A stretch of 64,000 nt of DNA, taken from positions 1 through 64,000 of IMG/VR virus record IMGVR_UViG_3300031974_003701, one strand, 5' to 3'. Under the pieces are notes generated by a model, which saw nothing but the letters and a program-made list of their open reading frames with translations, did not search any database and was not told where the DNA came from. This document shows, one piece after another, positions 13,092 through 22,523 of this stretch. How positions within the stretch are numbered: the first letter of the stretch is position 1; every line of letters starts with the position of its first letter. Source of the stretch: a virus. The translations under genes were made by a program, and so were the position numbers.

Positions 13092-13198
13092 TGGTGCAAC
13101 TTACTGGTTTCGAACCAATATTTTATCTATAGATTCAAGGTTGCGCACCCATTAGACCTAATCATTGATAAAGTTTTTTCCATTTAAACTAAAGTCGC
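13092..13198 (-). tRNA. tRNA with enlarged anticodon loop, isotype undetermined
   Basis: The gene has a 7-bp acceptor stem (GCGACTT with AAGTTGC, one G-T pair), T8-A9, a D arm (GTTT, a loop with GG, AAAC), a T arm with TTCGAAA, and an encoded CCA end. The anticodon stem is TTATC with GATAA, but the sequence between is ~39 bases instead of 7, giving 107 bases in all. Inside this, GATTAGGT pairs with ACCT/AATC (2-base bulge), forming an extra hairpin. An anticodon cannot be assigned. Confidence 0.6.
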
Positions 13199-13204
13199 AT
13201 ATGT

Positions 13205-13278
13205 TGGCTAAGGCACAGAGAATCGAACTCTGATATTCAGTTTTGGAGACTGACGCTTTACCATTAAGCTATACCCTA
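13205..13278 (-). tRNA. tRNA-Trp (CCA anticodon)
   Basis: A 74-base cloverleaf has acceptor TAGGGTA with TGCCTTA, D stem GCTT/AAGC, anticodon arm TCAGT-CTCCAAA-ACTGA (anticodon CCA), T arm CAGAG-TTCGATT-CTCTG, and an encoded CCA end. Confidence 0.9.
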
Positions 13279-13286
13279 AAAAATTA

Positions 13287-13362
13287 TGGTGACAAGTGTT
13301 GGAATCGAACCAACTTCTATGGATTTTCAGTCCACTGTTATGACCACATCAGCTAACTTGTC
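13287..13362 (-). tRNA. tRNA-Phe (GAA anticodon)
   Basis: A 76-base cloverleaf has acceptor GACAAGT with ACTTGTC, anticodon arm GTGGA-CTGAAAA-TCCAT (anticodon GAA), T arm TTGG-TTCGATT-CCAA and an encoded CCA. The D stem carries one mismatch. Confidence 0.9.
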
Positions 13363-13367
13363 ATGAA

Positions 13368-13467
13368 CTGGGATAGTAGGATTTGAACCTACCCTCCTAA
13401 CATATTGTATTAAAACTATTTACTAGAAAAATAAATATGTTATGTGCTTCCACTACACTATATCCCA
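13368..13467 (-). tRNA. tRNA with enlarged anticodon arm, isotype undetermined
   Basis: The acceptor stem is perfect (TGGGATA with TATCCCA), followed by T8-A9, a D stem GTGT/GCAC and a T arm GTAGG-TTCAAAT-CCTAC; no CCA is encoded. The stem TAACA with TGTTA (extendable to 9 bp) encloses ~35 bases instead of 7, including a TATTTA/TAAATA hairpin. Total 100 bases, about 27 more than expected. An anticodon cannot be assigned; a defective tRNA is possible. Confidence 0.55.
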
Positions 13468-13478
13468 ATAAAAATAAT

Positions 13479-13555
13479 TGGTCTGGACTAAAGGATTTGA
13501 ACCTTTGACTTCTACGTTCCAAACATAGCATTCTACCAAACTGAGTTAAGCCCAG
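13479..13555 (-). tRNA. tRNA-Pro (TGG anticodon)
   Basis: A 77-base cloverleaf has acceptor CTGGGCT with AGTCCAG, anticodon arm CTATG-TTTGGAA-CGTAG (anticodon TGG), T arm AAAGG-TTCAAAT-CCTTT and an encoded CCA. Confidence 0.9.
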
Positions 13556-18950: not shown

Positions 18951-19178
18951 CTAAAATTCTTTTAATATATTTCTAGCTTTATTTAGCTTTTTCACTAAAT
19001 ACAGCAAGTTATTAAGTTCAGAAGTTAGATTATTAACTGTACCCGTATCTCTACTACCATAATTTAAACCGTAAGCAGTTACTTTTTCAGAAGCTTCATA
19101 AATAGTATCAAATATTACTTTAGCTTCTTTCATCGTTTTGTTAAATCTTTTTAATTGATCTTTGTTTTTATCATTCAT
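18951..19178 (-). CDS. 75-residue helical hypothetical protein
   Basis: A basic, helix-rich product (KDQLKRFNKTMKEAKVIFD... LVKKLNKARNILKEF), likely coiled coil. Its start overlaps the DNA polymerase C-terminal gene by 4 bases (ATGA). Function unknown. Confidence 0.65.
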   Translation of the reverse strand: MNDKNKDQLKRFNKTMKEAKVIFDTIYEASEKVTAYGLNYGSRDTGTVNNLTSELNNLLYLVKKLNKARNILKEF

Positions 19179-19953
19179 TGTATGTGTTCCTTAAATTTAT
19201 TTACAATTTCTTGCTTAGAAATATAATTATCTAATGTGCATGGTTCAGCCCAAGAAGGATAGTAAATATCTAATTCACCTCCTAATTTAATATCTGGATC
19301 AGATATATTAGGATCTTCTTGCCATTCCATACATTTGATATAAGTGTCATTAACAAATTTAATGACATCTGTATTTGCTTTAATAGCAAAGTATCCTGCA
19401 TCATGAATTTGAGCCATAGGACGTATATCATATTTATATTTAGATTTACGAACTATTTTCATAAATTCTGAAAAAGCTCTGCTATTTAAAAGGCCGTAAG
19501 ACTGGCCTATAGCATTTCCAATAGTTCTTCCTTCTGCTGATGCAAGAATAGGAGTAGATTTACTTTTTAAAATAACTTGTTTAAGAATTGGTGTTCTAAT
19601 ACGTAAACCAAAAGCCACTTCTATATATCCTTTTTTAGAAGCAGTATATATTTTATCTTCTGTATATTTAATAGTAGCTTTATAAAGTTCTTTGTATCTT
19701 TGTTCAATTTTTTTAGCAGTATCTAAAGATAAACCTAAGTTTTTATGTAATGTGTGTGCGGTACCTTGATACGTATTTAATATACCCCTCTACCGAAGCA
19801 GAGGGGTTATATCGTGCAAGCAAAAGTAACGTTTTTACTCGCTTGTCTAAGGTCTCCATGTTTATCTTTTATTGAATTAATACGTGTTACATTATGCTCT
19901 TTAACAGAACATTCTGTGATTTCATCTATTGTACTTTCTATTGTTAATACCAT
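19175..19953 (-). CDS. DNA polymerase C-terminal part, expressed across an internal gap
   Basis: Two frames form one product: ATG at 19953 to the ACG codon 19815-19813 (47 residues, DLRQASKNVTFACT at its end), then from TAT at 19771 to the stop at 19175 (198 residues, starting YQGTAHTLHKNLGLS). Together they give family A motif B with the exact R36-x3-K40-x3-F44-x3-Y48 spacing, followed by motif C (QIHDAGYF). Between them lies a gap containing a stop codon and a hairpin, proposed to be bypassed by ribosomes. The start overlaps the end of the HNH gene. A GTG at 19618 could start a shorter frame but would lack motif B. This subunit should complement the 673-residue N-terminal part. Confidence 0.8.
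19775..19812 (-). other. putative translational bypass gap with UUCG-capped hairpin
   Basis: 38 bases separate identical ACG codons (take-off 19815-19813, landing 19774-19772) and are not a multiple of three with the landing codon counted. They begin ATA then TAA stop, followed by a 9-bp stem (19785-19806, seven Watson-Crick pairs, one G-U and a closing C-G) capped by UUCG; TATA on both sides can extend the stem. The target frame contains a TAG at 19792-19790, so a simple frameshift cannot join the two parts. Confidence 0.7.
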
Positions 19954-20521
19954 TTATTTTAGCTCTTTCTAATTTCTGTTGCCAAAGTGACTCATTAAGC
20001 TCATTTTCTAAACCTATTTCTTTTGCTATTTGCCTTAATTTAGTTGAAAGAAAAGGTATTTTATAAGGTACTCTTTTGGACAAAGATTTATATGACTCTC
20101 CTGCTATTACATCTTGTAAACAAGTTATAAACTCGTCTCTAGTAAGTCGGTTAGTATATGTAGTTAATCCAGTTTGTATTGCGTGTTGACTGTTTTCTTT
20201 TGATGTTACCCATTCTAAGTTATTTAAGTTATTATTTTGTCTATCACCATCTTTATGATTAATTTCAGGCTTATTTAAAGGATTTGGTATAAAATGTTGC
20301 GCTAACAATCGGTGTATATAATGCCAAGTTCCTTTATTATTTTTCCATAAAGAAACTTGATAATACCCTGTTTGTTTGTTTGGTATAGCTTTTATTATCT
20401 TACCTTTTCTAGGGTATTCAAGACCATCTTTACCAACAACAATTCTATCTACAGAATACACTGTACCGTTTGAATTTATACAGTAAAATCCTTCGTATCC
20501 TTTAATTTTTGATGTATGCAT
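19922..20521 (-). CDS. HNH homing endonuclease inserted in the DNA polymerase gene
   Basis: The likely start is ATG 20521 (MHTSKIKGYEGFYCIN), preceded by GGAG inside the polymerase reading frame, giving 199 residues; an upstream ATG at 20569 is less likely. The N-terminus is a NUMOD4-type DNA-recognition motif (YEGFYCINSNGTVYS), followed by an HNH nuclease core (IHRLLAQHFIPN...EINHKDGDRQNNNLNNLEWVT) and an Arg/Lys-rich tail. It cuts DNA at an insertion-free allele and spreads by repair. It overlaps the polymerase N-terminal part by 20 bases and the C-terminal part by 32 bases, so it splits the polymerase rather than sitting in a recognisable intron. Confidence 0.85.
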   Translation of the reverse strand: MHTSKIKGYEGFYCINSNGTVYSVDRIVVGKDGLEYPRKGKIIKAIPNKQTGYYQVSLWKNNKGTWHYIHRLLAQHFIPNPLNKPEINHKDGDRQNNNLNNLEWVTSKENSQHAIQTGLTTYTNRLTRDEFITCLQDVIAGESYKSLSKRVPYKIPFLSTKLRQIAKEIGLENELNESLWQQKLERAKINGINNRKYNR

Positions 20522-22523
20522 AAAGTTCTTCTCCAGTGAACTCTTTTCCTTGATAAATAACCTTTTCATTTGCTTTAAAGCAAATGTAAGTTTGACCTAC
20601 TTTTGCTTTGTAACATTTTTCTTGTGGTTCAGCAAGTTGGATGTCAGGCATTTGTTCTGTATAATATGCGTAAGAATTTCTACAGTGTCCGTCATAACCA
20701 TCTAAATAAATAGAACGTCTTACAGGGTCTTTTGTAAGTAGACAAATAATACGATCTTCTAAAGCATTAAAATCTGCACCTACAAATAACCACTCTTTAT
20801 TATTAAAACCAAAACATTTTTTAACTGGTTTAGCGTATTTAGAACCAGTAGAAGGTAAGTTTTGTAAGTTAATATTATTACTACTTAATCTACCTGATAC
20901 AGTGCCACCAAGATTAAAAAAGCCATATAAATAATGGTTACTATTACATTCTTTAGCATTTAAAAATGCAGGAAAGAAAGCAGTTAATATCTTATTAAGT
21001 TTGTTATATTCAACTAAATTAGATAATAAATCTCTATATTCTTGGTTTTCTGTATGATTAATTAATTTACTAATAGTTTTACTACTAGTTGCAGGATTAC
21101 CTTTATCAGTTAAATCTAGTACAGGTAAAGCCATAAAGTCATTAGAATAAAGTAATTCTACTAATTGAGGATTAGAATTTGGGTTAAATTCTGCTGTAGC
21201 GTCATCAAATGTTATTCTTTTTTTAACTCTTGTAGAATTGTATAAATTAACTTCTTGTTCTTTAAGATAGTAGTTAAATTTACTAATAATTTTACTGTTA
21301 TGGATATTATCTAAATAAGCATTTAATTGATTTTCTAACTCTTTATGCGTACTTTTAACTTGATCCATTTTAATAGGCAATCCAGTTAGTTGCATTTGAA
21401 TAATATCTTTAAGAGTATCTTTAAATAAACCTTCATATAGCTCTAGTTGCTTATCTTGAACCATTAAATCATAGTATTTTTCATAAACATACCATGTACT
21501 TAAACAATCAATAAGATTGTATTTACATAAATCATTAAAAGGTATTTGTAAAATATCTTTAATATCTTCTACAGCGTAATTACCACTAAATTCATGTGAT
21601 AAGTCTTTCAAAGACAAACTAGGCTTACTAGTAGAATTAAGAGCTAAATAACTAATAATTTTTGTATCATCAAAGTTATTAGTAAATACTTCTAATCCTT
21701 CTAATAAACCTTTAATATCTTCTAAATCAGACATAAATAGTTGATAAATAAGTACAGTTATGTCGTAACTACAATTATGCCATATAAGTTTATTAATTTT
21801 ACTAAATTGTATGAAAAAGTCTTTAAGTAATGCTCTAACTTTATAATTAACCACTTTTGTTTGGTTTGTAGTTACATCACAAGCTATAACTATGCCATTA
21901 TGTTTATCTGTAGATAAACTAATAGTACCTAACCCTGCTTCATCAAATTTAAGACTAAATGTTTCAATATCTGCCGTTAAAGGTTGGTTTAAAGTAAGTA
22001 AATTATCTAAAGCTTCTTTAATGTCTTTAATTCTATATAGAAATTTATAACTATGAATGATATTTGTACCTAAATCTTGATAAGTACCTTTTAAATGATT
22101 ATTAACTGCTACTAGAGCTAACTTAATATTATTAATGACTTCTGGGTTATAATAAATATTTTTATAACTAGGACAGTAAAAAACATTATAATTATTACAA
22201 AAAGAGTTTAATTTATACCCTAACTGTGGATTAAGTTTTTTAACTTTAGTTAAATATTTAAAATAGTCTCCATCAGTTACAATTAAGTTAGTTACACCTA
22301 ACTGTTTACAATACTTGTTAATTTGATCCATATAAGTTTCTATAGTAGTAACTTTAGTCCGTTTAGGATCAGTTTTAACTTCAAAGTTAATTATAGAGTC
22401 TTTATACTCATTTAAGTAAGGTTTTATGTAATAATCATTTGCTTTTTGTATGTTTAAAGAGCCAGTAAGAAGCATTGTACTATAATTACTTCTTATTGGT
22501 TCACTAAAAGTTATAAATTTCAT
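20502..22523 (-). CDS. DNA polymerase N-terminal part (exonuclease and motif A)
   Basis: 673 residues of a family A polymerase. A DEDDy 3'-5' exonuclease is seen: D185-x-E187 (TADIETF), HNCSYD with D254, and Y335-x3-D339. Polymerase motifs follow: GGTVSGRLSSNNINLQNLPS (about 539-558) and motif A GADFNALEDR with D584 and E589. The frame stops at residue 673, just inside the HNH gene, before motifs B and C, which are on the next polymerase segment at 19953-19175. It follows the helicase gene by 9 bases. It replicates the phage genome, presumably as a two-polypeptide enzyme. Confidence 0.9.
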   Translation of the reverse strand: MKFITFSEPIRSNYSTMLLTGSLNIQKANDYYIKPYLNEYKDSIINFEVKTDPKRTKVTTIETYMDQINKYCKQLGVTNLIVTDGDYFKYLTKVKKLNPQLGYKLNSFCNNYNVFYCPSYKNIYYNPEVINNIKLALVAVNNHLKGTYQDLGTNIIHSYKFLYRIKDIKEALDNLLTLNQPLTADIETFSLKFDEAGLGTISLSTDKHNGIVIACDVTTNQTKVVNYKVRALLKDFFIQFSKINKLIWHNCSYDITVLIYQLFMSDLEDIKGLLEGLEVFTNNFDDTKIISYLALNSTSKPSLSLKDLSHEFSGNYAVEDIKDILQIPFNDLCKYNLIDCLSTWYVYEKYYDLMVQDKQLELYEGLFKDTLKDIIQMQLTGLPIKMDQVKSTHKELENQLNAYLDNIHNSKIISKFNYYLKEQEVNLYNSTRVKKRITFDDATAEFNPNSNPQLVELLYSNDFMALPVLDLTDKGNPATSSKTISKLINHTENQEYRDLLSNLVEYNKLNKILTAFFPAFLNAKECNSNHYLYGFFNLGGTVSGRLSSNNINLQNLPSTGSKYAKPVKKCFGFNNKEWLFVGADFNALEDRIICLLTKDPVRRSIYLDGYDGHCRNSYAYYTEQMPDIQLAEPQEKCYKAKVGQTYICFKANEKVIYQGKEFTGEELYAYIKN

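Follow-up and report, generated by a model that had tools for sequence, protein, structure and literature searches.

The virus record IMGVR_UViG_3300031974_003701 of IMG/VR (66,584 bases, uncultured virus) carries a family A DNA polymerase of the N4-like (Schitoviridae) type that is encoded in pieces, all on the minus strand, with an HNH homing endonuclease gene between the pieces and a 41-nucleotide (nt) insert within polymerase motif B. We analyzed positions 1 to 64,000 of this record, a stretch of 64,000 nt that makes up most of it and is called the window below. Judging from comparison with related phages, the arrangement is very likely a mobile homing cassette similar to T4 mobA/gene 60 that sits in an N4-like polymerase and whose gap would be crossed by the ribosome. 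The parts of the locus, with lengths in amino acids (aa) where given, are as follows.

20502..22523, minus strand: DNA polymerase part I, 3'-5' exonuclease and palm with motif A; 673-aa open reading frame (ORF), DNA_pol_A 2.5e-23
20505..20636, minus strand: C-terminal tail of part I, 44 aa, conserved in split polymerases and not in unsplit ones
19922..20521, minus strand: HNH homing endonuclease, I-HmuI-like, with NUMOD4 (Pfam HNH_3 1.8e-10, NUMOD4 7e-7)
19807..19953, minus strand: DNA polymerase part II, first reading frame, 47 codons up to ACG, next AUA UAA (ORF and homology)
19816..19842, minus strand: predicted 5' stem-loop, GCGAGUAAAA-7 nt-UUUUGCUUGC, adjoining the take-off codon on its 5' side
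19813..19815, minus strand: putative take-off codon ACG, codon 47
19772..19812, minus strand: 41-nt gap within motif B, landing codon included (homology comparison)
19779..19813, minus strand: predicted UUCG-loop hairpin of the gap, beginning inside the take-off codon
19772..19774, minus strand: putative landing codon ACG, same as the take-off codon
19175..19771, minus strand: DNA polymerase part II continuation, remainder of motif B (YQGT), motif C (HDA) and C-terminus

Part I is of the N4 gp39 type, with 41-44% identity to N4-like polymerases, and ends in MPDIQ followed by the tail. The ORF behind it is recognizable as an I-HmuI-like HNH homing endonuclease, as the HNH_3 and NUMOD4 matches are joined by a match of I-HmuI (PDB 1u3e) to the endonuclease profile at 4e-22. 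An earlier note on this DNA, made from the sequence alone, had placed an HNH endonuclease between two polymerase genes, overlapping both, and the ORFs agree with it: the endonuclease, 20521..19922, begins within the terminal portion of part I (22523..20502), and its own 3' end contains the ATG of part II (19953). The absence of an intron, also proposed there, was upheld by a covariance search of 19000..20800 with Rfam, in which neither curated nor relaxed thresholds gave a group I or group II match, the intron of Acinetobacter phage nACB1 serving as positive control. The split is not a clean cut, because part I carries at its end, and part II at its start, an extra tail (44 aa and ~21 aa, respectively) that is missing from unsplit polymerases. 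A split intein in these tails was considered and rejected, part I plus its tail having no Pfam intein match; tails of 44 and ~21 aa are also too short for a HINT fold.

The gap proposed in the earlier note is real. The first-frame peptide of part II, MVLTIESTIDEITECSVKEHNVTRINSIKDKHGDLRQASKNVTFACT, comprises 47 codons of which the last is ACG, and after the AUA UAA that follows, polymerase homology picks up again at TAT 19771, directly after a second ACG and 41 nt past codon 47, reading YQGTAHTLHKN.. in a different frame from the part II start and ending at 19175. The canonical motif B of the family is SKAPTFALTYQGT, and skipping exactly 41 nt restores it with zero residues lost or added, so that two ORFs that are out of frame and separated by a stop jointly encode one conserved protein. 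Because UAA closes part II after 48 codons, the continuation lies in another frame and the junction has no start codon, recoding across the gap is needed. For the same reasons the two-polypeptide polymerase envisaged in the earlier note stood only in part: two separately started genes are present, but re-initiation alone gives no active enzyme. The predicted UUCG-loop hairpin of the gap is strong, and the hairpin-bearing stretch of the window scored z -4.9 against shuffles. Two other roles for the gap hairpin were ruled out, namely that of a terminator, since no T-run follows it on either strand, and that of repeated mobile DNA, since its 20-mer core is rare and the bacterial copies lie in an intact gene or in intergenic DNA.

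Relatives were surveyed with two polymerase-based scans of viral contigs, which gave 160 loci, an endonuclease-profile scan that added 80 and a scan with the part I tail that added 80, the sets overlapping. All counts given here are of distinct sequences, related phages being not fully independent, and a degenerate copy (L300; surveyed loci are given L numbers) was excluded from the association counts. The majority of the surveyed polymerases are a single ORF, and a sizeable group is split after MPDI like the window, most of these carrying extra tails whose homology is recognisable. Where the polymerase is split at this site with an HNH gene between the halves, every distinct locus (15/15, window included) has a motif-B insert of 1 to 48 nt, compared with 2/30 of the split loci without HNH (Fisher 4e-10 for the HNH-insert association among split loci) and 0 of ~135 unsplit polymerases. 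Twenty-eight distinct loci are split at the window's site without an HNH motif and have motif B intact, the space between their halves being empty or filled by Tad2-like, NrdJ-like or unknown ORFs. HNH-free split polymerases are common, and the endonuclease is not required for every split. The earlier claim that the endonuclease splits the polymerase is right in that the HNH gene lies at the split, but it is not the sole cause, given those 28 relatives; the accompanying guess that the gap protects its allele or relates to homing is probably right. The HNH proteins of split loci belong to several divergent lineages, which makes more than a single origin likely.

Comparison of close relatives showed that the HNH gene, the split and the insert arrive as one cassette, with HNH gene and gap inherited together. 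L200, which carries the same allele as L078, and L213 are phages that are ~95% identical, and the polymerase of L213 is one unsplit ORF; 109 nt of L213 are replaced in L200 by 894 nt that comprise the part I tail, the HNH gene, the part II head and a 48-nt gap, and identity picks up again at the resume codon, which is the right edge of the cassette. In the pair L124 and L131, near-identity extends to where a Tad2-like gene ends and returns at the resume codon; the intervening stretch of L124 contains the HNH gene, a part II head that has diverged, and the gap. L088 does not differ from L117 through the gap but does so by 19% beyond it. These three junctions fall at one point, as would be fitting if the endonuclease cut empty alleles at the position of the gap. 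Additionally, the HNH enzyme of phage nACB1 (L033) belongs to the same clade as the window's and the other enzymes of alleles with a gap at the sequence FALT (support 0.998), and sits at almost the same position in polymerase motif B; unlike the window, its carrier is a self-splicing group I intron in place of a bypassed gap, inserted ~5 nt from the gap site (Rfam RF00028, E 8e-9, 41 bits, which is under the 50-bit curated cut-off). Clade and intron position suggest one enzyme lineage whose site is taken up by a gap in some phages and, in one, by an intron. The host gene of I-HmuI is a phage DNA polymerase too.

The gap alleles number 17 distinct sequences, some present in more than one contig. 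They are listed by position, with the codons on either side and any nucleotides between them.

FA(L/C)T position: window, 41 nt, ACG/ACG; L303, 47 nt, ACT/ACT; L078, 48 nt, ACC/ACT; L324, 48 nt, ACC/ACC; L124, 40 nt, ACT/ACA; L218, 5 nt, ACG-TA-ACG; L088, 5 nt, ACG-TA-ACA; L064, 5 nt, ACT-TA-GCT
KAPT or KSPT position: L134, ACC-TG-ACT; L090 and L334, ACT-TA-GCT; L317, ACC-TA-GCT; L359, ACT-TA-ATT
Other positions: L260, CTT-TGA-CTT; L060, CTC-AGGTAA-CTT; L109, CCT-TAG-CTT; L219, one additional C following TTT

Every long gap contains a GC-rich hairpin, and landing and take-off codons specify the same residue in 11/17 alleles (p 3e-10). For the upstream stem-loop, stems with a 3' arm reaching up to the take-off codon were scored relative to synonymous recodings of the same peptide. 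The mean z of the abutting stem was 3.1 across the 17 alleles and 0.1-0.2 at the same places in 173 distinct gap-free control sequences, 135 of them unsplit (Mann-Whitney 9e-7 and 2e-8, p-values that are descriptive, the first cases having been known when the score was designed). The effect is position-specific and the stem tracks the insert, such that KAPT-sited inserts have their stem at KAPT rather than at FALT (GGGGCTCTTCG..CGAAGAGCCCC directly before ACC in L317; GGGGACTTCG..CGAAGTCCCCT directly before ACT in L334). In the KAPT class, 5 of 11 pairs changed on both sides, a figure equalled by 1/500 shuffles; covariation was weaker in the FALT class, with three such pairs. The sequence downstream of the gap is under purifying selection, with motif C (HD) retained in every full-length gap allele and dN/dS after the gap between 0.03 and 0.23 in the alleles where it was estimable.

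The T4 genes 39, 60 and mobA, which the earlier note had offered as an analogy, proved to follow the same plan. In T4 an HNH gene separates topoisomerase gene 39 from gene 60, and gene 60 has its own gap of 50 nt after codon 46, within the DADHDG motif (PMC5009743); its two GGA codons match, UAG follows take-off, and the gene further has a take-off hairpin with UUCG, a stem-loop on the 5' side and the peptide signal KKYK (PMC11194080). Likewise, in the window an HNH gene splits an essential replication gene, HNH gene and gap form a cassette, and the gap lies in a conserved catalytic motif, after codon 47 rather than 46, with matched codons, a stop near take-off, a UUCG hairpin that begins within the take-off codon, and an upstream stem-loop. 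The window differs in that the gene is a family A polymerase of an N4-like phage, that ACG takes the place of GGA and that the window's relatives have gaps of 1-48 nt. By analogy, the window would work like the gene 60 and mobA cassette, which is a comparison of operation and not a claim of common descent.

In such a cassette, the HNH gene is placed between two separately started polymerase genes, and its enzyme would most likely target the highly conserved motif-B DNA ~140-180 nt downstream, where the 41-nt insert would shield the resident copy from cutting. The ribosome would translate the 47 part II codons to ACG and stall, with AUA/UAA ahead, a hairpin behind the take-off codon and another that begins within it; the peptidyl-tRNA-Thr would then release, pass over 41 nt and re-pair with the matching ACG, and translation would restart at TAT to give ..FACT-YQGT.. 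with motif B intact. The two proteins would assemble afterwards, presumably by way of their extra tails. Across the family the gap would be crossed by hopping (41 nt in the window, 5 nt elsewhere) or slipping, and the exact landing point in the alleles with unmatched codons is a predicted one.

Several observations weigh against ribosomal bypass of a homing cassette, apart from the late origin of the stem score. The landing codon is unmatched to the take-off codon in 6/17 alleles. L109 has no abutting stem-loop, and the stems of L324, L303 and L124 are individually not significant. The window's stop codon is the second after take-off and not the first; in the 5- and 6-nt gaps of relatives it is immediately adjacent. 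The upstream stem abuts the take-off codon in the window, which T4's does not. The KKYK nascent-peptide signal was not found in the window's 47 residues, where some other signal is possible, and because it is missing we did not class the window as a gene 60 homologue. Furthermore, L324 (gap at L324:2633-2683, an NrdJ-like gene between the halves) and L334 (L334:2826-2830, nothing between the halves) carry a gap with no HNH gene, perhaps as a remnant after endonuclease loss.

Four other explanations were weighed. The polymerase could be made from independently started pieces, two subunits or three counting the gap, with the post-gap piece starting by itself and no recoding; part II does have its own ATG inside the HNH gene, and gap-free split polymerases clearly exist. 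This is very unlikely here, as the window's resume point has no nearby ATG, GTG or TTG, in the ORF list the continuation does not begin until GTG 19618, ~50 codons in and with half of motif B lost, the break sits inside motif B itself and the resume point is exact in many alleles. That frameshifting or read-through would serve in the relatives, with -1 frameshifting at the 5-nt gaps and read-through at the gaps with an in-frame stop (6, 9 and 48 nt), is very unlikely. In its favor, 5 nt and -1 end in the same frame, and the 1-nt gap of L219 (UUU C) fits a +1 slip. Either event would, however, add 2-16 residues to motif B, P-site re-pairing is poor after -1 or +2 whereas +5 re-pairs two or three bases in most alleles, and the gaps of 40, 41 and 47 nt are left unexplained.

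Removal of the gap as RNA, by a mini-intron, by trans-splicing or by an intron relic that still splices, appears extremely improbable despite the true group I intron ~5 nt away in nACB1 and the degenerate-intron origin proposed for T4's gap (PMC5009743), because gaps of 1-48 nt leave no space for a ribozyme and three cassette regions had no intron match at relaxed thresholds. The polymerase could also be broken, its insert having been left by endonuclease cutting or by misassembly; a 1-nt insertion such as that of L219 could be an error, and L300 is an apparently degenerate copy with motif B deleted (L300:807-1874, an HNH gene of the window's clade joined in frame to the polymerase C-terminus). 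For the window this has little to recommend it and is highly improbable, since the phage record yielded no other DNA polymerase of family A or B, the same kind of insert occurs in 17 distinct alleles, the sequence downstream is under purifying selection and the stem-loops are under selection.

Other systems share parts of the cassette. The split nrdA of Aeh1 with mobE and the split gene 43 of Aeromonas phage 25 resemble the window in pairing a homing endonuclease with an essential gene made as two polypeptides, in other genes and phages, and the paper describes no bypass gap (PMC2988022). Split N4-like polymerases of the Pollock type (L006, L007, L034, L216) also have an HNH gene between halves with extra tails, but their split site is Y|DGYDGH, their HNH clade is another (support 1.0) and they have no motif-B gap. 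Short inserts are likewise crossed by ribosomes in the byps of Magnusiomyces mitochondria and in laboratory stop-hops (PMC5009743), and CUU UGA CUU of L260 resembles a textbook stop-hop; unlike the gap alleles, byps are numerous and reported to be independent of mRNA context, and that review gives no endonuclease link. No cultured phage with the window's split plus gap was found among the phage records searched, in which pYD6-A, B2, nACB1 and the Pollock types have introns or another split site. We found no report of bypass in Schitoviridae polymerases in the literature searched, which leaves out most subscription papers.

Several side observations were made. HNH genes lie at other sites of N4-like polymerases in Shigella phage B2 (L008) and Pseudoalteromonas phage pYD6-A (L297), with flanks that look like group I introns. 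Among the cargo between polymerase halves are Tad2-like genes, which encode Thoeris anti-defence 2-like domains (L101:3126-3863, L131:3406-3870 and others), and the NrdJ-like ribonucleotide reductase of L324, with similar ORFs in L312, L333 and L321. In L012 (L012:1766-3730) and L013 (IMG/VR 3300037071_005634 and 3300037070_001643), a frame-breaking insert of 40 nt disrupts the terminase large-subunit gene within Walker A, between GGARGGG and KSFASLGEF, and the hairpin core of this insert is identical to the window's over 20 nt; directly upstream is an ORF that is HNH-endonuclease-like by eye, without a Pfam match. The terminase is possibly a second gene with such a cassette, and the shared 20-nt core may in part be due to chance. 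The window also has five tRNA-like genes clustered at 13095-13555 (Rfam), three of which are called by ARAGORN (Trp, Phe, Pro), the two others being 100-104 nt long.

A 2016 review remarked on how few cases of bypassing were known, a picture changed only by a yeast mitochondrion (PMC5009743). Efficient bypass in bacteria and phages had so far rested on T4 gene 60; there are now 17 distinct candidate alleles in one gene family, which vary in gap length and come with upstream stem-loops and with gap-free controls, one of them ~95% identical across thousands of bases. We consider it reasonably probable, with less assurance than the cassette itself, that the homing endonucleases of one phage family have repeatedly made recoding sites in the same essential gene, and that recoding is here an immunity device of selfish DNA. 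A small insert that destroys the cutting site would persist if the ribosome can cross it, and the cassettes would use a 1-nt slip, 5-nt hops, 6-9 nt stop-hops and 40-48 nt bypasses, mostly with a hairpin abutting the take-off codon, the self-splicing intron of nACB1 occupying the same niche. The alleles make testable the minimal bypass signal, the need for a nascent peptide, how the upstream hairpin drives the ribosome and whether protection against homing is what gives rise to bypass elements. In annotation, phage polymerases that look split or broken may be functional.
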